From a virus, in the IMG/VR virus record IMGVR_UViG_3300021962_000340, positions 1 to 34,748 of that record: DNA of 34,748 bases. The stretch is one strand, 5' to 3'. The notes below the pieces were generated by a model, which was not told the DNA's origin, made no database searches, and saw only the letters and a list, made by a program, of their open reading frames with translations. This document shows, piece after piece, positions 443-11,634 of the stretch. Position 1 is the first letter of the stretch, and the number at the start of each line of letters is the position of its first letter. The translations under genes and the position numbers were made by a program.

Positions 443-1487
443 CTTCTGTTTCCTCTTCTTCATGCTTTATAATTTCACCTGATGCTACTCTATATTTTGT
501 TTCAATGAAATCTCTAAAGCTTTTTTGTTTTAAAATTGGCATCCAGAAATCTTTGCTGTCTGTGTCTTTTTCACGATATTTTTTATCTTCAATTTCACCA
601 GTATCAACATTTACCTTTGAATACCAACCATTAGATGGTTTGATAACATGCCCGGATTCAAGAGCGATATCCAATAGACCAGACCACTTACTAATACCAC
701 CATCAAAAGATACAGTGACAGGTATTTTAGATTTTTCTTTAACATATCTAGACTTTTCGACATTGATGATAAAATTGTATCCAACAATTTCTGTGCCTTC
801 CTTTTCTTGTTGTCTTCCTATGATAAAAATATTATCAGCAGAGTAATATGATCCTGTTCCGCCACCAACGATATCTTTTGGAAACATTCCAATTTCTTTA
901 TAAGTATGATTCACAACTACCATTGGAATATCTTTCATTGAAAGATGAGGTGTGATCATTCTGAATAAAGACTTAATTTGTTTTGCTCTGGACATATCTG
1001 CGACAGATTTTTGATCGAGTGCATCTTCAACTTCTTTTTTAGATGCAAGATTTCCAATCGAATCTACGACAATAATAAGTCTATCACCTCTGTCAATATT
1101 CTGTAATTGATTCATGATATCAAATTTCAACTGCTCGATATCAGTGATAGGTGTATGATACACTCGGTCTTTATCGATATTAAACGTATCAAAGTATGAT
1201 TGAGGTGTACCAAATTCTGAATCATAAAATAACAAAGCTGAGTCTTCATATTTGTCTAGATAAGACTTAGCCATCAACAAACTAAATGCCGTCTTAAAAT
1301 GTTTAGAAGGGCCTGCCCACATCGTAAGCCCAGGTGTCAAACCACCATCCAGTCTACCACTCAACGCAACATTAATGATAGGTATTGAAGTGGGAATCAT
1401 ATCTTTGTCTGTGAAAAATTTAGACTTGGACAGGATGGAAGATTCTTTAATGCTACTATTCTTTTTAATTTTTTCAAGGATACTCAT
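429..1487 (-). CDS. uvsX: UvsX RecA-like recombinase
   Basis: 352-residue strand-exchange protein, the T4 counterpart of RecA. It forms filaments on single-stranded DNA with help from UvsY and drives recombination-dependent replication. Walker A is GPSKHFKT (residues 59-66), in the typical UvsX form; Walker B is LIIVVDSIGN, with the aspartate near residue 141. The C-terminus is acidic (EEEETEDE), as in UvsX. The gene starts nine bases after the gene 43 stop with an AAGGA site, and its end overlaps the gp40-like gene, so 43-uvsX-40-41 looks like one transcription unit. Confidence 0.96.
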   Translation of the reverse strand: MSILEKIKKNSSIKESSILSKSKFFTDKDMIPTSIPIINVALSGRLDGGLTPGLTMWAGPSKHFKTAFSLLMAKSYLDKYEDSALLFYDSEFGTPQSYFDTFNIDKDRVYHTPITDIEQLKFDIMNQLQNIDRGDRLIIVVDSIGNLASKKEVEDALDQKSVADMSRAKQIKSLFRMITPHLSMKDIPMVVVNHTYKEIGMFPKDIVGGGTGSYYSADNIFIIGRQQEKEGTEIVGYNFIINVEKSRYVKEKSKIPVTVSFDGGISKWSGLLDIALESGHVIKPSNGWYSKVNVDTGEIEDKKYREKDTDSKDFWMPILKQKSFRDFIETKYRVASGEIIKHEEEETEDETA

Positions 1488-1496
1488 ATATTTTCC

Positions 1497-4037
1497 TTAA
1501 TCAAAGAGTGAAACTGTTTTTTCTGTCGACCAATTCATACAATCCAATACCACTTTAATAGGGTCTAGAAAGGTTTTTTCGAATTGCATTTCATAATCAA
1601 TGTATGGATCTAAATTGAATTCGGTAGGTAACCTGCCGGGAAAAGAAATAACACTATCTTTAAACGGATTAGGTTTTTTCAGATAAGTAAACTTTATCTT
1701 TTCACCTTCTTGAATCAGAGGGTATTTTTTAGTCAAACCTTTTTCTTGCAGATAATTATTATATAGTAATGCACCCTTTACATGAATAGGTGTACCTTTT
1801 GAGTAAATGGTAGTTTTGTTTGAATATTCACTCAACCCATTTATACCTCTAGGGAAAGAAATTTCTTCAGGCGGCAAGCTTTTAAACTCACGTTTGAAAT
1901 CGTCTATAAACTTGTGAATATCACTCTCTTCACCTCTCATCATAATTTCCAAAGCTTGCTTCATTTTCTCACGCACAGGCGCAGGCGTAGAAGATTTAAT
2001 CATTTCAAGACCCATGACTTTCATCTGCGGTTCTTGATATTGAACACCTTCATTATTATATACATGCATGATATAACGTTTCTTTGCAGTCCAAATGCCT
2101 TTGTCCGCCAGAGCTTCACGTTTCATTCTCATTTTTTGAGCATACGCATGAACATATTCTGCCAATTCGGCATAACTTTTATCGATGAATGGTTGCAGTT
2201 TTTCTTGACAAACACGATCCATAAACTCAATTATTTTTTGACCATGCAAAGAAATTTCGTCTTTTGTTCCATATACTTTTTGTACCAATTCATTGAGTCT
2301 CAAATAAATTGAATCTGTATCAGAAGCGATCACATAGTCTTTATTAGTTTTAAGTAGTGAGTTCATATACTGATTCAGCTTATTTTCGATCCAACGAATA
2401 GACAATTGGCCTGCCAGGGTGACAGCGAGAGCCATTCTCAAATCATAAAATCTAAAATACTGTGAACCAAGAGCACCGTAAGCAGAGTTTAGAGAAACTT
2501 TTTTTGCTAACTGTAGATTGTTATATCGTGCAATTCTCTTTTCTATCTCAAACTTTTTGTTTTCATCCTTTTCATTCTCATATTCTTGTTTAGCTTGAAG
2601 CATCAACTTCTTGAATTTTTTACGATCTTCATACATTTCTTCCATCATCTTAGGAAGAAAGCCCTGAAAATCTGTCCTGAAAAATTGCCCATTCGGTGTA
2701 AGTGTAGCATCTTTTAATTGACTCACATCTATTTTTTTCGAAAGAAGCTTTTCAACATCTACACCCGATGAAAGTATTTCTCGCATTTCGGCAGTATAGT
2801 TTTCCGGTTCAATCAAAGTTTCGGGAGAAATATTATACTGCATCATAAGGTGTGGATACAAACTATCGAGGTCAAATGATGCAACCCAATCATGTTTTCC
2901 AACCTGCGGTTCTTTAACATAAGCACCTTCAAAAGCAGAGCTTTTTTCTTGAATTACTCTTGGAGGTACAATAACATTTTTTTCCAGCAAATGATTATAT
3001 GTCAGAGCGTCCCACATTCTCGTCTGTGCAAATACGTCGGTATAATTTGATTTTGTATCGTATGCAAGCGTCAGTGCCAACTCCAACAGTTTCAACTTAT
3101 CTTCCATTCGAATGATAAGCTCAACGTCTTTGATATTATATTCGATGAATTTCTGAAAGTTTAGCTTATAGAGTTGATGTAAAGAGTCGTACTCATCATA
3201 TGATAGCTTTCGTTCACCTAACTCAACATTGGCAATGTTATCAAGTTTGTATGATTCTTGTGACTTTCCGTTAGGTGAATACCATTTGTAAAGTTCCAAA
3301 TAATCTAGATGCCCGATACCCACAAGATCATAAACCGTCTGTTGTTTGTTCATGACAAAAACTTTTCTCTCAGAAATTAAATTCCAAGGAGAAAGTTTCT
3401 TTGCGTAATCTTCACCCAAGATTTTTTTAAACCTGTTAACCAGATATGGAATATCAAAAAACTCTGTATTCCAACCAGTCAAAACATCAGGGGTTTTCAA
3501 AGCCCAAGCATTTAGAAAACTTGTGCAAAGAGTCCATTCATCTTTACATTTGTAATATGTCACAGTTTCTGGCGTATCATTTTTGAATTCACCACAACCC
3601 CAAACGTACATGTGACCATTTAACACTTTCCAAGCAATAGCCGTGATTGGTTCATTAGCTTGATATGGGTCAGGAAAACCATTCTCTGACCCAACTTCGA
3701 TATCGATGACTGCAATATCAATTTTATTGAAATCCCATTCGATCATACCTTTGTAATGATCTGCAATATATGCATATTCAAATCTAGAATTACCATAGAT
3801 TTTTTTACCTGAGACATTTTCGAATTGACGGAAATAATCTCTGGCTTCACGCATAGAATCAAACTTTATTTCTTGTAGATATTCACCTTGCAGATTTGTA
3901 AAATTTGTAACCTTTTTAGAAAGTTCAAAAAATCTAGGCTGATAGGCAATTTTACCTTTTACTTTTTTACCCTTAGAAACACCACGAAAGAGTATATTAT
4001 TGCCTACAGATTGCACATTTGTGTAAAAGTTTGACAT
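1497..4037 (-). CDS. 43: DNA polymerase (T4 gp43, family B)
   Basis: 846-residue family B polymerase with 3'-5' exonuclease. The Exo I motif (VIDIEVGSE, near residue 110), polymerase motif A (DLDSLYPHL, near 388), motif B (KVSLNSAYGALGS) and the catalytic motif C (DTDSIY, near 572) are all present and intact, so the enzyme is probably active. Length is close to cyanophage gp43 and a little shorter than T4 (898). The ATG overlaps the stop of the upstream LSm-like gene in a TAATG junction, a sign of coupled translation. In the complex it would work with the gp45 clamp and gp44/62 loader encoded elsewhere in the window. Confidence 0.98.
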   Translation of the reverse strand: MSNFYTNVQSVGNNILFRGVSKGKKVKGKIAYQPRFFELSKKVTNFTNLQGEYLQEIKFDSMREARDYFRQFENVSGKKIYGNSRFEYAYIADHYKGMIEWDFNKIDIAVIDIEVGSENGFPDPYQANEPITAIAWKVLNGHMYVWGCGEFKNDTPETVTYYKCKDEWTLCTSFLNAWALKTPDVLTGWNTEFFDIPYLVNRFKKILGEDYAKKLSPWNLISERKVFVMNKQQTVYDLVGIGHLDYLELYKWYSPNGKSQESYKLDNIANVELGERKLSYDEYDSLHQLYKLNFQKFIEYNIKDVELIIRMEDKLKLLELALTLAYDTKSNYTDVFAQTRMWDALTYNHLLEKNVIVPPRVIQEKSSAFEGAYVKEPQVGKHDWVASFDLDSLYPHLMMQYNISPETLIEPENYTAEMREILSSGVDVEKLLSKKIDVSQLKDATLTPNGQFFRTDFQGFLPKMMEEMYEDRKKFKKLMLQAKQEYENEKDENKKFEIEKRIARYNNLQLAKKVSLNSAYGALGSQYFRFYDLRMALAVTLAGQLSIRWIENKLNQYMNSLLKTNKDYVIASDTDSIYLRLNELVQKVYGTKDEISLHGQKIIEFMDRVCQEKLQPFIDKSYAELAEYVHAYAQKMRMKREALADKGIWTAKKRYIMHVYNNEGVQYQEPQMKVMGLEMIKSSTPAPVREKMKQALEIMMRGEESDIHKFIDDFKREFKSLPPEEISFPRGINGLSEYSNKTTIYSKGTPIHVKGALLYNNYLQEKGLTKKYPLIQEGEKIKFTYLKKPNPFKDSVISFPGRLPTEFNLDPYIDYEMQFEKTFLDPIKVVLDCMNWSTEKTVSLFD

Positions 4038-5039: not shown

Positions 5040-5588
5040 ATGTTCAAAAAGCTACCATTTTTGGTGCTTTTTGTTATTTCTTCGCTAAGTTTCGCACAAT
5101 CTGATGTGATCGTTACAGATTCAAAAAGCACAAGCACCGTAACGACAAACAGTAACAGCGTCAACGAAACCACAGTAAAATCACCACCTGGAACGGCAAT
5201 CTCGCCATCTTTTAATGTCTTGAACAATGACCTTTGTACAACTGGGGTCAGTGGTGCCGTACAAACTCAGATCCTGGGTATTTCTGGCGGGACTATGATT
5301 CGTGATATGAATTGCGAAAGATTGAAACTCGCCAAGAACCTCTATGATATGGGTATGAAGGTGGCTGCTGTCGCTACTCTTTGCCAAGATGACAGAGTAT
5401 TTCAAGCGATGTTGAATGCAGGTACGCCATGCCCAATAGATGGCAAAATTGGCGAGGAAGCAAAGAAAGTTTGGGATGCAAACCCCGACCGCAAACCGGT
5501 CCCATTAAAAGAGAGCAATGATGCAAGTTTCTGGCAAAAAATTTCTGCTGGTCTTGGCTTCTTGGCTATCCTTCTCATTCTACTGTAA
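5040..5588 (+). CDS. Exported protein with signal peptide and C-terminal membrane anchor
   Basis: 182 residues, family not recognised. The N-terminus (MFKKLPFLVLFVISSLSFAQ) is a clear Sec signal peptide with probable cleavage after SFA. A Ser/Thr/Asn-rich stretch follows (residues about 22-60), then a middle domain with four cysteines, LAKNLYDMGMKVAAVATLC and CPIDGKIGEEA. The last 19 residues (ISAGLGFLAILLILL) form a hydrophobic tail that ends at the stop. The mature protein would sit outside the inner membrane, held by its tail. First gene of a four-gene plus-strand cassette; its last 71 bases overlap the next gene in another frame. An AGAGG site precedes the ATG. Confidence 0.75.
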   Translation: MFKKLPFLVLFVISSLSFAQSDVIVTDSKSTSTVTTNSNSVNETTVKSPPGTAISPSFNVLNNDLCTTGVSGAVQTQILGISGGTMIRDMNCERLKLAKNLYDMGMKVAAVATLCQDDRVFQAMLNAGTPCPIDGKIGEEAKKVWDANPDRKPVPLKESNDASFWQKISAGLGFLAILLILL

Positions 5589-7170
5589 CGCACAAGACTT
5601 ACTAACCTCTCCCAATATTATTACCAATCAGTGGAGTAATACTGTACCTGGAGTATCTGGAGGTAATAGAGGTGGTAATGTTGCAGGGTTTGATCCGACA
5701 ACCAATACGATATTATTTGGTTATACACAGCAAACGGTCGGGCAAAGGATAGCTCTTGAAGGCACAGGAATAAAGTTGCATGGCTATAACTATTCTTTTG
5801 AGTATAATAACTCTGGATTTTCTAGAGGATACCTTGCTGGGTCAATCATTCTTTTGGACAAAGACAATAAGTCATTAGACACCAATGCATTTTCTTTAAA
5901 CGCAACTGAAGGATGGAAACAAGTAAGTGTAACTAGAAACTTCAATAATCAATATTCACTTGATTACGCTCGAACATTATCCGTAAATTTTACAGGTAAG
6001 GATGACAGGTATTGGGCGGGGTACTATGGACCTCAAGTAAGAAATGTAAATGTAAGCCTGCGATATACACAAGACTTATGTGTAACTAATCCCCTATCAT
6101 CACCGTCTTGCGAAGGCTACGAAAAAGCATACTTCGATCTACAATGTAATGCAAGCCCATTCTACAGTGTAGCTTGCCCTGGATACGAACAAGCAAACTT
6201 TCAGAGACTATGCACTAATAATCCTCTTTTTAATCCCACTTGCCCAGGATATGCGGCTGCAAAGTTTACTCAACAATGCACAGAAAATTCTCTTTTCTCT
6301 AAAGAATGCCCTGGATATCAACAAGCGTTTTTCAATCAACAATGTTCTTTAAATACTCTTTACAATCCCTCATGCCCAGGGTATGCAAAGGCACTATTCG
6401 ATAAAACTTGTAATGAAAATCCTTTGTCGAGTGACGCATGCCCACTTTATCAAGCTGCATACTTAGATCAACAGTGTAAAGCAAACCCCCTTTTTTCCTC
6501 CGCTTGCCCAATGTATCAGCAAGCATTTTTCAATCAGCAATGTACGGCAAACCCACTGTACAATTCTGGTTGTTTAGGTTATGCAGAGGCTTTTAGAAAG
6601 AAGCAAATTACAGATGCATGTAATGCAAATCCACAATCAAATCCTACATGCAAAGGATATGAAGTGGTAAAACACACTGTACAATCTATTCAACACAGTG
6701 TCGCTATTAATGAAGATCCGATTAAAGCTCTAATAGAGCCAAAACTTGTAGAAGATCCTATTGTCAACCAAGTGCTGCAAGTAACTTCAACACATACTTT
6801 AAACCATCAAGCAGCACCACCAATGCAAACTCCGCAGCAAAATACAAGACCGCAACAAGGACAAAGAACAGAGCAAAAGACAGACAAGTCACAATCACAA
6901 AGAACATCAACGGGTTCACGACAAGCAGCATCATCAGCCGCTCGTAAGAGTCAGCAAGAGCAGCAACAAGATGACGTAGTGGCTTCAATGGGAAATGTTC
7001 CTGGTTTTAGTAGTTATTTACAATCAAATATACCTGATGCACCATTTTATATTTCTGAGGATATTTATCGTCGAGCAAACATTCCCGATAATGCGAGAGC
7101 ATTAAGACAACTTAATCAACGTTCAGATAGAATCCATAAGGAGATGGTAGATGAGCAGTACAGAAGATAA
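5518..7170 (+). CDS. Secreted cysteine-repeat protein
   Basis: 550 residues, family not recognised. Signal peptide in residues 1-25 (KKFLLVLASWLSFSFYCNA, cleavage before QD). Residues about 26-185 look beta-rich with many Gly/Asn and YTQQTVGQRIALEGTGI-type strands. Residues 188-389 are nine tandem units of about 22 residues with two cysteines each. Residues about 415-485 are Gln/Ser/Thr-rich and probably disordered. The C-terminus is charged (RRANIPDNARALRQLNQRSD). The start is fixed by GAGAG before a double ATG, which places the signal peptide inside the 3' end of the upstream gene. Disulfide-rich export suggests a role at or outside the host envelope or on the virion; this is inference. Confidence 0.75.
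   Translation: MMQVSGKKFLLVLASWLSFSFYCNAQDLLTSPNIITNQWSNTVPGVSGGNRGGNVAGFDPTTNTILFGYTQQTVGQRIALEGTGIKLHGYNYSFEYNNSGFSRGYLAGSIILLDKDNKSLDTNAFSLNATEGWKQVSVTRNFNNQYSLDYARTLSVNFTGKDDRYWAGYYGPQVRNVNVSLRYTQDLCVTNPLSSPSCEGYEKAYFDLQCNASPFYSVACPGYEQANFQRLCTNNPLFNPTCPGYAAAKFTQQCTENSLFSKECPGYQQAFFNQQCSLNTLYNPSCPGYAKALFDKTCNENPLSSDACPLYQAAYLDQQCKANPLFSSACPMYQQAFFNQQCTANPLYNSGCLGYAEAFRKKQITDACNANPQSNPTCKGYEVVKHTVQSIQHSVAINEDPIKALIEPKLVEDPIVNQVLQVTSTHTLNHQAAPPMQTPQQNTRPQQGQRTEQKTDKSQSQRTSTGSRQAASSAARKSQQEQQQDDVVASMGNVPGFSSYLQSNIPDAPFYISEDIYRRANIPDNARALRQLNQRSDRIHKEMVDEQYRR
6079..6684 (+). repeat. Nine tandem 22-residue cysteine repeats within the secreted protein
   Basis: Consensus C-x(2)-N-P-L-[FY]-x(3)-C-P-G-Y-x(2)-A-x-F-x(2)-Q-x, repeated nine times. 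Both cysteines are present in every unit, and the CPGY turn becomes CEGY, CPLY, CPMY, CLGY or CKGY in some units. The DNA of the units has diverged while the protein pattern holds, so the array is old and under selection. Confidence 0.85.
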
Positions 7171-7783
7171 AGACATAAACAAGAAGATTGATGCTGCTGA
7201 GGCAGCAATGAAACAGTATGCAAGTAAAGATACCGTAATTAGTATTGGAGGATATAGTTTCACTCCAGCAAAACTTATGATTGCTGCGGGTATCGTTTCA
7301 TCTGTTGTTGGTGGAATGTATGGTGTGTTCGAAACGTATAAAGACTATATGGGAATGAAAAAAGCTATTGCAAATTATGTTGCACCAGACTTTAGTGAGT
7401 ATGAAGCAAGAATTATCAAGCTAGAAGAGAATAGTGAAAAGGTTGTTGGATATACCAGAGATATAAACACAAACCTGAAAGGTGATATTCGTAGAACGGA
7501 AGGTGTATTGGAAAACGTAGAGCGAGGAACTAAAGTTGCTCAACGTGAAGTGGAGAAAGATATTGCGGACATTCGCAAACAACTTGATGGCGAGATTAAA
7601 GAAATTCGTCGTAGCACTGATTCTCAAGTGAGAGAGATGCAAAAGCAAGTTGATGCAACTGTGCAAAATGTCAATGAAAGAGTGAATCGTATTGAGCGTG
7701 AGAATGCAGCAGAGTTGAGAACAATACGTCGTGAAGTGGATGATAAGATAAAGAAAGCGTTAGATAATCCATTAGCAAACTAA
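7151..7783 (+). CDS. Single-span membrane protein with long coiled coil
   Basis: 210 residues. A polar N-terminus of about 45 residues, one membrane span (KLMIAAGIVSSVVGGMYGVF, about residues 48-67), then more than 120 residues of charged heptad or hendecad coiled coil (repeated EIRR, VREMQKQVDATVQNVNERV patterns). A good AAGGAGAT site precedes the ATG, which overlaps the end of the cysteine-repeat gene by 20 bases. With its short N-terminal part inside, the coiled coil would lie in the periplasm, an inner-membrane-spanin-like shape, but nothing in the sequence proves a lysis role. The function is unknown. Confidence 0.75.
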   Translation: MSSTEDKDINKKIDAAEAAMKQYASKDTVISIGGYSFTPAKLMIAAGIVSSVVGGMYGVFETYKDYMGMKKAIANYVAPDFSEYEARIIKLEENSEKVVGYTRDINTNLKGDIRRTEGVLENVERGTKVAQREVEKDIADIRKQLDGEIKEIRRSTDSQVREMQKQVDATVQNVNERVNRIERENAAELRTIRREVDDKIKKALDNPLAN

Positions 7784-7784
7784 T

Positions 7785-8303
7785 ATGGATCCAGTAACAC
7801 TACTTGCAACTGCATCTGCGGCTTTCAATGGCATCAAAAATGCGGTTGCAATAGGTCAAGAAGTTGAAGGTGTATTTCGCCAGTTAACGAAATGGGCTGA
7901 TGCTGCTGGTCAATTACAGGAATTAATTAATGAAAGAAAAGGTGATACAAATGAGAGAAAAGTTGGGATATTTGAAAAGATAGGATTTAAGCAAAGCGAA
8001 ACTTCTGAAGCATTTGATATATTTGCTGCACAGATGCGCTTACGTGAGATGGAAGAAGAAATACGCCTAATGTTTATCTATGGTGAACTACAGCATCTTG
8101 GTATGGAAGGATACAGTCAGTTCAATCAGATACGTCGTGAAGTGAGAGAGAAAAGAGAAAGGATGATCCGAGATCAGGCTAGAAGAAGAAAAATGTTTAT
8201 AGAGAATGTTTTTTGGTACTCTCTACTAATTGTGACAATAAGTATAGGTATAAAACTCGCCGTATGGTTTTATGATTACGGTGTTGAATCGGGAAAGTGG
8301 TAG
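7785..8303 (+). CDS. Helical protein with C-terminal membrane anchor
   Basis: 172 residues, family not recognised. An Ala-rich N-terminus (DPVTLLATASAAFNGIKNAV), a charged helical middle (RLREMEEEIRLMFIYGEL, then REVREKRERMIRDQARRRK) and one membrane span near the end (VFWYSLLIVTISIGIKLAVW, about residues 141-160). The ATG lies one base after the previous stop and has no clear binding site, so it probably relies on coupled translation. The stop codon overlaps the 3' end of tRNA-Met on the other strand. Its place in the cassette and tail anchor suggest it works with the other three membrane or secreted proteins. Confidence 0.7.
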   Translation: MDPVTLLATASAAFNGIKNAVAIGQEVEGVFRQLTKWADAAGQLQELINERKGDTNERKVGIFEKIGFKQSETSEAFDIFAAQMRLREMEEEIRLMFIYGELQHLGMEGYSQFNQIRREVREKRERMIRDQARRRKMFIENVFWYSLLIVTISIGIKLAVWFYDYGVESGKW

Positions 8304-8371
8304 CGGATTCTGGAGTCGAACCAGAAACTGAGGATTATGAGTCCTCTGTGATACCTTTTCACCAACCCGCA
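8301..8371 (-). tRNA. tRNA-Met(CAT), elongator type
   Basis: Full cloverleaf: acceptor TGCGGGT/ATCCGCT with a T-T mismatch at 1-72, D arm GTG/CAC, anticodon loop CTCATAA on a five-pair stem, T arm TCTGG/CCAGA, discriminator A followed by an encoded CCA. An unpaired 1-72 is an initiator trait, but the anticodon stem lacks three G-C pairs and position 11-24 is T-A, as in elongators. The CCA end overlaps the stop of the plus-strand gene. Confidence 0.85.
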
Positions 8372-8635
8372 ATCATATTTATTTGGTGGGCCCCCTCGGA
8401 GTCGAACCGAGCACCAACGAATTATGCTTACCACTACAACTTTCGTTGCCTGTTTCCAGTTTGTGGTCTGGACTATACCTTACCTTTACGGCTGTACCGT
8501 CTAGTCTCTACACCTTCCTATTTCTAGGTTTGGCTCGGTATTAGCATCAGTATTACCTGTTAAGCCTTCACCGAATTTGATACATTCTATTTTTAATCCT
8601 TAGACATATTAAAAGATTATGAAATTCTTCATAAT

Positions 8636-8643
8636 TATAAATA
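8636..8643 (+). promoter_or_regulatory. T4-type late promoter for the HNH gene
   Basis: An exact TATAAATA, the consensus for gp55-dependent late transcription, 39 bases before the HNH start codon. It directly follows a perfect eight-pair hairpin (ATTATGAA/TTCATAAT, 8617-8636) that could be intron P2 on the other strand. Confidence 0.65.
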
Positions 8644-8681
8644 TGAATGTGAATTAAAAACAACCCATTAGGATTAATCAT

Positions 8682-9050
8682 ATGTTAAAATGTATAACTT
8701 GTCAACAAAATTTAACTGGTAAAAAAACTAAATTTTGTTCTTTAAAGTGTAAAAATTCTTTCACAAATAATAAATTTCAAAATTATCAGACCCAACAAAA
8801 ACGAGGTCATGAAAGAAAAAAGAAACTTATCGAAATGAAAGGAGGAAAATGCGAGATTTGTTCATATAACAAAAATTTGTCCGCTCTGTGTTTTCATCAT
8901 AGAGACCCTAAAGAAAAAGAAACACCTTTAACCATTAGGGAATGTTCAAACAACACTTGGGATTCATTAGTGGAAGAAGTTTTGAAATGTAGACTTCTTT
9001 GCCACAATTGTCATATGGAAATTCATTTTCCTGAACATAATAACACTTAG
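8682..9050 (+). CDS. HNH homing endonuclease
   Basis: 122 residues. An N-terminal zinc ribbon (CITC...FCSLKC) is followed by an HNH nuclease domain: CEIC, then LCFHHRDP, then LLCHNCHMEIH, so the zinc cysteines and the catalytic His-His are intact. It lies inside the group I intron of tRNA-Ile2 but is coded on the strand opposite to the intron RNA, with its own late promoter at 8636-8643. Its stop is 13 bases from the intron end. HNH enzymes of this type cut intron-less alleles and spread the intron; that role is inferred from its position. A CTTAGAC repeat flanks the gene (8599-8605 and 9046-9052). Confidence 0.88.
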   Translation: MLKCITCQQNLTGKKTKFCSLKCKNSFTNNKFQNYQTQQKRGHERKKKLIEMKGGKCEICSYNKNLSALCFHHRDPKEKETPLTIRECSNNTWDSLVEEVLKCRLLCHNCHMEIHFPEHNNT

Positions 9051-9106
9051 ACTTCTCCTTTTAAGTTCGCTGCTCTAACCAACATGAGCTAGAGGCCCGT
9101 ATCTGG

Positions 9107-9188
9107 TGCGACTGGCCGGACTCGAACCGGCACGCCCGAAGGCGAGGGATTTTAAGTCCCTTGCGGCTACCTATTACGCCACAGTCGC
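9107..9188 (-). tRNA. tRNA-Leu(TAA)
   Basis: Class II cloverleaf with acceptor GCGACTG/CAGTCGC (seven pairs), anticodon loop CTTAAAA, a long variable arm CGCC-TTCG-GGCG, T arm GCCGG/CCGGC, discriminator A and an encoded CCA (9106-9104). Confidence 0.93.
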
Positions 9189-9202
9189 AATAAAAAGGGT
9201 GG

Positions 9203-9276
9203 AGCGGGCAACCAGATTCGAACTGGTACTGTCAGCTTGGAAGGCTGTCGTGCTAGCCGTTAAACACCATACCCGC
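9203..9276 (-). tRNA. tRNA-Gly(TCC)
   Basis: Acceptor GCGGGTA/TGCCCGC, D arm GTGT/GCAC, anticodon loop CTTCCAA, T arm ACCAG/CTGGT, discriminator T (the bacterial glycine identity base) and an encoded CCA. Confidence 0.93.
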
Positions 9277-9281
9277 AAAGA

Positions 9282-9752
9282 TCACGCTGCTAGACTTTTT
9301 AATCTATCAGCCGCATATGAAGCTGCAAACGCATTTGGTTTGACTAGAGGTACTACATTACACATTCCTTTTATATAGCCAATCGCTTCATTAATTACAA
9401 TACTAGAATTATACTCTTCTTTAGGATTAATGTCAAGATGTACTTCGATATCAACATCAATCATTGCCGAAAGTTGCAAATACATTTCAGCTACTTTATA
9501 AACTTCATTCATTAGTCGCATACGTGGTTTATTACGTGCTTGGTCATAATCACGTTCACGAGTAATTTGCCCAAAAATTTTACAACCATGTTTACTGTCC
9601 ATATGTACAACAATGGCTATAATGTAATCTGCATGCCACTGCCCTTTTACTTTAACCCTTTCGGAATCACAGCCGAGATATACTTTTGTATTTGGGCCGC
9701 AACTATCAATAAACTTTTTTACTTCTTCTAAGTCAATTTTTTTATTATACAT
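9282..9752 (-). CDS. RNase H-like phage protein (DUF458-like)
   Basis: 156 residues from the ATG at 9752, which has AAAGGA nine bases upstream; longer in-frame readings run into tRNA-Trp and are rejected. Acidic motifs on predicted strands (VYLGCDSERV near residue 27 and VEVHLDINP-type IEVHLDINP near 113) and a C-terminal PNAFAASYAADR suggest an RNase H-like fold with a possible metal site. The substrate is unknown. The gene sits between tRNA-Gly and tRNA-Trp, and a perfect sigma70-type promoter for the downstream tRNAs lies inside it. Confidence 0.6.
   Translation of the reverse strand: MYNKKIDLEEVKKFIDSCGPNTKVYLGCDSERVKVKGQWHADYIIAIVVHMDSKHGCKIFGQITRERDYDQARNKPRMRLMNEVYKVAEMYLQLSAMIDVDIEVHLDINPKEEYNSSIVINEAIGYIKGMCNVVPLVKPNAFAASYAADRLKSLAA
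9408..9436 (-). promoter_or_regulatory. Consensus sigma70 promoter feeding tRNA-Gly to tRNA-Met
   Basis: On the minus strand: TTGACA, exactly 17 bases, TATAAT, a perfect match. It lies inside the RNase H-like gene and would start transcription near 9401, ahead of tRNA-Gly, Leu, Ile2 and Met. Confidence 0.7.
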
Positions 9753-11532: not shown

Positions 11533-11542
11533 ATATAATTGG

Positions 11543-11634
11543 TAGTAGACTAGGGATTCGAACCCTACCGTTCCAGCCCATCTGACCAGTCTCCAGGGTT
11601 TATAAGACCCCGCCGCACACCAGTGCTGTCTACC
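11543..11634 (-). tRNA. Atypical class II tRNA-like gene, apparent anticodon TAT
   Basis: 92 bases. Acceptor GGTAGAC/GTCTACT, a strong T arm TAGGG-TTCGAAT-CCCTA, discriminator A and an encoded CCA are normal. The anticodon stem GGGGT/ACCCT closes a seven-base loop CTTATAA, which would give anticodon TAT (isoleucine, AUA). The D arm is odd (GCAC-TGGT-GTGC or GCA/TGC), and the variable region is about 27 bases, a class II length never expected for isoleucine. It may be a diverged Leu or Ser tRNA or a non-functional hybrid. Confidence 0.6.

Follow-up and report, generated by a model that had tools for sequence, protein, structure and literature searches.

How can a gene be expressed from the strand opposite a ribozyme without spoiling the tRNA in which the ribozyme lies, and how does a mobile intron of this kind get assembled? 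Both questions are raised by a locus in the viral sequence IMGVR_UViG_3300021962_000340 (the whole stretch analyzed, 34,748 nt, is called the window below, and the sequences compared with it carry L numbers). Here a tRNA gene with the anticodon CAU is interrupted by a group I intron, which in turn holds an HNH endonuclease gene in the opposite orientation (Table 1). The virus is T4-like, as its major capsid protein shares 64.6% identity with that of Methylophilales phage Melnitz.

The split tRNA-Ile2(CAU) gene and its intron

The minus strand from 9098 to 8384 represents a tRNA-Ile2(CAU) gene, including the CCA end, that is interrupted by 637 nt. Removal of the intron (9063-8427) in silico, joining U33 (9064) to C34 (8426), recovers a CAU tRNA with a short-variable-loop cloverleaf. 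Uninterrupted CAU tRNAs from T4-like and other phages are 81-85% identical to the tRNA body. The assignment to Ile2 rather than Met follows from the resemblance of this body, and ARAGORN labels such genes Met. As an Ile2(CAU) tRNA, it would carry lysidine at C34 and be charged with Ile. In comparison with the relative L001, the T stem shows a compensatory pair change (CTCGG/CCGAG in the window, CGCGG/CCGCG in L001).

Table 1. Coordinates of the features of the split tRNA locus in the window
Feature	Position	Strand	Details and support
5' exon, tRNA-Ile2(CAU) positions 1-33	9064..9098	-	in-silico splicing restores the cloverleaf; sequence
Group I intron, 637 nt, omega-G 8427	8427..9063	-	RF00028 E 7.6e-6; core covariation; fold z -4.9
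P1 extension, 5' strand AGGA	9056..9059	-	pairs with UCCU 8673-8670; MFE fold, sequence
Internal guide	8662..8668	-	P10 strand AUG 8668-8666, P1 strand GGUU 8665-8662
Ribozyme core P3-P9.1	8427..8591	-	P3 8584-8579/8498-8493, P7 8506-8502/8475-8471; alignment, covariation
3' exon of tRNA-Ile2, C34 to CCA	8384..8426	-	sequence; in-silico splicing
HNH endonuclease gene, 122 aa	8682..9050	+	PHROG HNH matches; homologues; dN/dS against L001
AGGA, Shine-Dalgarno-like site of HNH	8670..8673	+	sequence; AGGAG in L001
TATAAATA, late-promoter-like	8636..8643	+	46 nt upstream of HNH start; not above chance
Plus-strand gene block toward HNH	5040..8303	+	ORFs; candidate source of a read-through HNH transcript

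Detection of this gene by ARAGORN, which had been proposed as a check, succeeded in part. The default mode found 13 other tRNAs in the window and missed the split tRNA-Ile2, and the intron mode reported a cloverleaf interrupted by an intron of 637 nt; it shifted the splice sites, however, and named the tRNA Leu(taa). The latter call was rejected, as the spliced tRNA lacks a long variable arm and the proposed intron end is not an omega-G. The splice sites were set at U33/C34 because of P1, P10, and the omega-G. Among the other ARAGORN predictions is a 95-nt tRNA-Ile(UAU) with a long variable arm (window 11540-11634, minus strand), which has no Rfam tRNA match and is kept in L001; it is a possible second AUA-reading tRNA beside Ile2.

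In P1, the exon sequence AACU (9067-9064) pairs with GGUU (8665-8662), forming a U33-G wobble at the splice site; there are four pairs, followed by a mismatch. P10 consists of three pairs between AUG (8668-8666) and CAU 34-36, the first bases of the 3' exon. A guide of the same type, GG plus the exon complement, was also found in L012, L023, L308, L313, L314, and L152. An automated guide search was empty for L011, L013, L146, L173, L175, L177, and L197; the L173 guide, AUGGGCUG, is readable by eye.

The Rfam Intron_gpI model (RF00028) matched positions 8671-8446 at a relaxed threshold (30.6 bits, E 7.6e-6), and a scan of the window at gathering thresholds returned no intron, the RF00028 gathering score being 50 bits. 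The covariance-model check proposed in the first-pass annotation thus yielded a match that lies under the score at which Rfam itself would report it. That score is a database cut-off and not a feature of introns, and the window intron agrees with the structural definition of the group: a pseudoknotted P3-P7 core with P4-P6, P8, and P9, a U-G guide pairing at the 5' splice site, and an omega-G at the 3' end.

We aligned 28 tRNA-CAU introns of phages and bacteria on a structure comprising P3, P4, P5, P6, P6a, P7, P8, P9, and P9.1. Standard pairs occupy 97.0% of cells versus 29-43% in slid controls, a comparison tilted in favor of the structure because it was drawn from the window. Independent of this bias are the double changes, observed in 206 cells versus 59.5 after shuffling, with 27 of 41 pairs altered on both sides; the covariation score is 0.525 versus 0.179 for shuffled and at most 0.093 for slid alignments. 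De novo energy folding of the intron without the middle of the ORF gave P1, a long P2, P4-P6a, P8, and P9 (z = -4.9). By structure and covariation the element is a group I intron, for which guanosine-dependent self-splicing is to be expected. The tRNA-Ile2 identity, the break between U33 and C34, and the complete core, all read from the bare sequence in the first pass, are borne out by these data.

tRNA introns in other viruses and bacteria

Exact-pattern scans were made for an omega-G followed by CATAA, as in CAU introns, and for the tRNA-Leu counterpart. The former pattern occurred in 14 viral stretches in a first scan and 27 in a later one, as well as in 81 bacterial stretches with hosts including Accumulibacter, Omnitrophota, and Patescibacteria; the latter was found in at least 120 viral stretches. 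In-silico splicing followed by ARAGORN restored a tRNA in 172 of the 218 candidates. These scans and the splicing identify U33/C34 as the normal site of CAU introns, so the insertion point, earlier regarded as unusual, is the ordinary one for bacteria and phages alike. Most of the viral CAU introns found are without an HNH gene.

According to a 2014 review, all phage introns then known resided in protein genes, despite the many phage tRNA genes (PMC3984707), and the first-pass annotation, which knew of no phage tRNA case for antisense homing genes, is in line with it, but phage tRNA introns prove to be common in contigs of uncultivated viruses. Our literature search, of partial coverage, found no report on group I introns of phage tRNAs or on antisense endonucleases of phage introns. 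The cultured Agrobacterium phage Atu_ph07 has an unannotated tRNA-Leu intron; a search for a cultured phage with a tRNA-Ile2 intron found none. Since the tRNA-Leu and tRNA-CAU introns of viral contigs are both widespread and invisible to default tRNA annotation, phage tRNA sets are undercounted.

The phage tRNA-Leu intron cores are 73-76% identical to the window core, which supports the previously suggested kinship with tRNA-Leu introns. In core sequence and architecture the tRNA-Leu(UAA) group I introns of phages, and presumably those of cyanobacteria, are closely similar to the window intron. They differ from it in splitting U34/A35 (exon ...CUU / AAAA) instead of U33/C34, and HNH genes of viral tRNA-Leu introns, where present, are in sense orientation (L118; L028, L038, L059, L093), whereas the window HNH is antisense. 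On the tree of intron cores the groups cluster and many forks are unsupported, and the tree is compatible with an origin of the Ile2 intron from either tRNA-Leu introns or bacterial CAU introns. The tRNA-fMet introns of Omnitrophota contain a sense PD-(D/E)XK endonuclease matching PDB 2OST at 1.7e-48, which we take to be I-Ssp6803I. Such introns share with the window the U33/C34 split of a CAU tRNA and an endonuclease near the 5' splice site, but the tRNA (fMet, not Ile2), the enzyme family (PD-(D/E)XK, not HNH), and the orientation of the gene (sense, not antisense) are different.

Several other loci were noted in these searches. Viral contigs L300 (330-640, plus strand) and L261 (1110-1420, plus strand) contain group I introns in apparent tRNA-Asn(GUU) genes split U35/U36. 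In L019 (5600-5900, plus strand) an intron links the 5' exon of a tRNA-Leu with the 3' exon of a tRNA-Ile2, and unmixed versions occur in L020 and L011; either two introns recombined or the hybrid is an artifact of assembly. Finally, in Pelagibacter phage HTVC120P (L009, 2001-2147) two ORFs flank a similar core; because both are annotated as capsid protein, the intron probably interrupts the capsid gene.

The antisense HNH gene and its relatives

The HNH gene lies wholly inside the P1 loop, with the 5' splice site on one side and the guide on the other. Its antisense placement, reported in the first pass, was confirmed. The ORF matches PHROG HNH families (E 1.4e-17). A Pfam scan of the ORF gave no HNH family over the cut-off, only sub-threshold unrelated names, and a PDB profile search retrieved only weak matches to ribosomal zinc proteins. 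The protein starts with a Zn-finger-like CxxC...CxxxC region, followed by the HNH domain; the residues invariant in A1 (C57, C60, H72, H73, N90, C107, C110, H111, and H115) represent the HNH motif and zinc-binding cysteines. Comparison with the 98%-identical L001 copy revealed four synonymous and three non-synonymous codon changes (dN 0.010, dS 0.081), and the gene is therefore probably under constraint, judged on few changes. The AGGA preceding the gene (8670-8673, plus strand) is the complement of UCCU, the 3' strand of the P1 extension.

In tRNA-Ile2 introns of seven phage and bacterial lineages, an antisense HNH gene separates the 5' splice site from the ribozyme core. Five are viral: L001/L015, a relative with the split tRNA elsewhere in the tRNA cluster, L023, L229/L313, L252/L311, and L312. 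The other two, L173 and L197, belong to Peregrinibacteria/Peribacteria (Patescibacteria), and in both the HNH frame continues into the 5' exon, read antisense. The L197 locus looks chromosomal, as it adjoins genes that we read as sufB/sufC-like. In the Peregrinibacteria sequence L173, a serine-recombinase-like gene (1114-2655, plus strand) terminates next to the 3' terminus of the split tRNA-Ile2, as if at an integration site. Sense HNH genes were not seen among the CAU introns examined.

A profile scan produced 80 HNH loci, and the window HNH groups with others in a 28-row clade (support 99/94). All 18 free-standing members of this clade are antisense to the neighboring tRNA; 16 of them directly adjoin a CAU tRNA, several overlapping its 3' end, and two adjoin Lys or Arg tRNAs. 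CAU accounts for 7.8% of tRNAs at the other HNH loci, so that the binomial probability of 16/18 is ~8e-12, a figure that assumes independent loci, although some related loci are near-copies. The HNH gene of L250 borders directly on a CAU tRNA that is intact and Ile2-like; the reading frame terminates within the anticodon loop, read antisense. Intron-borne and free-standing members are interspersed on the tree, requiring at least three changes, but the AU test does not reject a single clade (p 0.112). More distant HNH relatives (L253-L304) likewise lie close against tRNA genes or overlap them, frequently at Asn(GUU) and in many cases in the sense direction, and may be subfamilies that each have a particular tRNA target.

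Two further loci show the HNH gene or the intron in reduced form. L010 carries the orthologous phage intron, with the tRNA order and the core of the window, in a form of 300 nt: the two ends of the HNH gene are still there and the middle is missing (the 5' end of this intron was matched to the window by eye, as MAFFT misplaced that part). It reads as an intron retained after deletion of HNH, the reverse order being less likely. In L240, the 5' half of a tRNA and HNH are present, and no core is detectable. Free-standing endonucleases at intact CAU tRNAs, HNH-free introns, introns with HNH, and an intron with an HNH remnant make up a natural series, in which the union of endonuclease and intron is directly testable.

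Probable capture of the HNH gene and candidate routes of its expression

We consider it probable that the window contains a mobile group I intron of a phage tRNA-Ile2(CAU) gene, in which an HNH gene was captured at its own target with its antisense orientation kept. In the minus-strand pre-tRNA, the last bases of the 5' exon would pair with the internal guide (U33-G), the intron would excise itself via the omega-G, and joining of the exons would give tRNA-Ile2. The HNH enzyme may cut or nick CAU tRNA genes that lack the intron, in or close to the anticodon arm, as its association with such genes suggests, and recombination would then copy the intron into the cut gene. The HNH clade includes free-standing phage endonucleases lying antisense against CAU tRNA genes, and introns at the same target would have captured some of its members, in accordance with the collaborative-homing model, where a free-standing endonuclease cuts an intron insertion site in phages (PMC3984707). 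The antisense orientation could then be inherited, because the free-standing clade sits antisense to CAU tRNA genes; L010 would represent a later loss of HNH with the intron kept.

The ingredients of collaborative homing are present here: a related free-standing endonuclease occurs at CAU tRNAs, and the site of the window intron is also occupied by introns that lack HNH. The two elements are found at one class of loci, and the composite intron exists as well. Unlike the known cases, the target is a tRNA gene, the composite is antisense, and cleavage is presumed from sequence associations. T4 SegB is likewise an endonuclease of a phage tRNA cluster, but it belongs to the GIY-YIG and not the HNH family and is free-standing, outside any intron (PMC2988022, PMC13096335). 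More tentatively, and with slightly less than even confidence, we propose that an HNH family directed to the CAU anticodon arm has been captured independently on several occasions by group I introns at one tRNA-Ile2 site, each time in antisense orientation and in the P1 loop, with passage between phages and Patescibacteria, and that the whole cycle of birth and decay coexists in this one gene family.

The most serious competitor, which we nevertheless regard as rather unlikely, is a working intron that is no longer mobile, where HNH is a passenger in a permissive loop that homes near tRNAs without introns and has no functional link to the intron. The free-standing relatives indeed move without introns, most viral CAU introns found have no HNH, and L010 does without it. 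Nevertheless, random landing would not be expected to place an antisense HNH upstream of the core, next to the 5' splice site in the intron, in seven phage and bacterial lineages; the usual neighbor of HNH is the same tRNA class, CAU.

In the capture reading, HNH would be translated from a separate antisense transcript, originating either from its own late promoter or by read-through from the plus-strand operon. An endonuclease gene opposite both ribozyme and host gene, in need of its own transcript, is documented for a eukaryotic rDNA intron, as the first-pass annotation noted: the nuclear intron Dsq.L2066 of Didymium squamulosum has an antisense homing-endonuclease gene (PMC9548176). It encodes a His-Cys nuclease in a P9.2 insertion of a group IE intron and is set in rDNA with RNA polymerase II, whereas the window has an HNH gene in the P1 loop and the setting is a phage or bacterial tRNA. 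The first pass had also given HNH its own late promoter on the basis of an exact TATAAATA. This sequence is present, but the window contains four exact sites versus 3.85 expected, and its probability in 110 nt of the same composition is 0.057. It is not kept before HNH in L229, L252, and L257 (2-3 mismatches). Neither the over-frequency nor the conservation before HNH anticipated for a T4-type late promoter was observed, and TATAAATA was rejected as late-promoter evidence. No plus-strand terminator was predicted in 8280-9300, and read-through from the 5040-8303 operon and an own TATAAATA promoter appear equally good candidate sources of HNH mRNA.

Antisense regulation of tRNA splicing, raised in the first pass, is a matter of speculation. 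It would take the form of a timing switch, the antisense HNH transcript pairing with the pre-tRNA late and stopping tRNA-Ile2 splicing. Such a role would fit TATAAATA upstream of HNH and the plus-strand block that points into the intron with no predicted terminator, but it is made improbable by the chance-level frequency of TATAAATA, by mismatches to it in the three further antisense lineages compared, and by the occurrence of the same arrangement in Patescibacteria, where a phage late phase does not exist. A decayed locus with halves that are never joined and the tRNA lost would agree with the RF00028 match under the gathering score, but it is hardly credible given the compensatory changes that preserve the core and tRNA stems and the intact splice-site geometry.

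On the intron's strand, a promoter-like sequence TTGACA-17-TATGAT (11/12) was noted at window 8705-8677, inside the HNH start, from which a truncated intron transcript would be produced; promoter-like sites numbered seven versus 2.4 expected.
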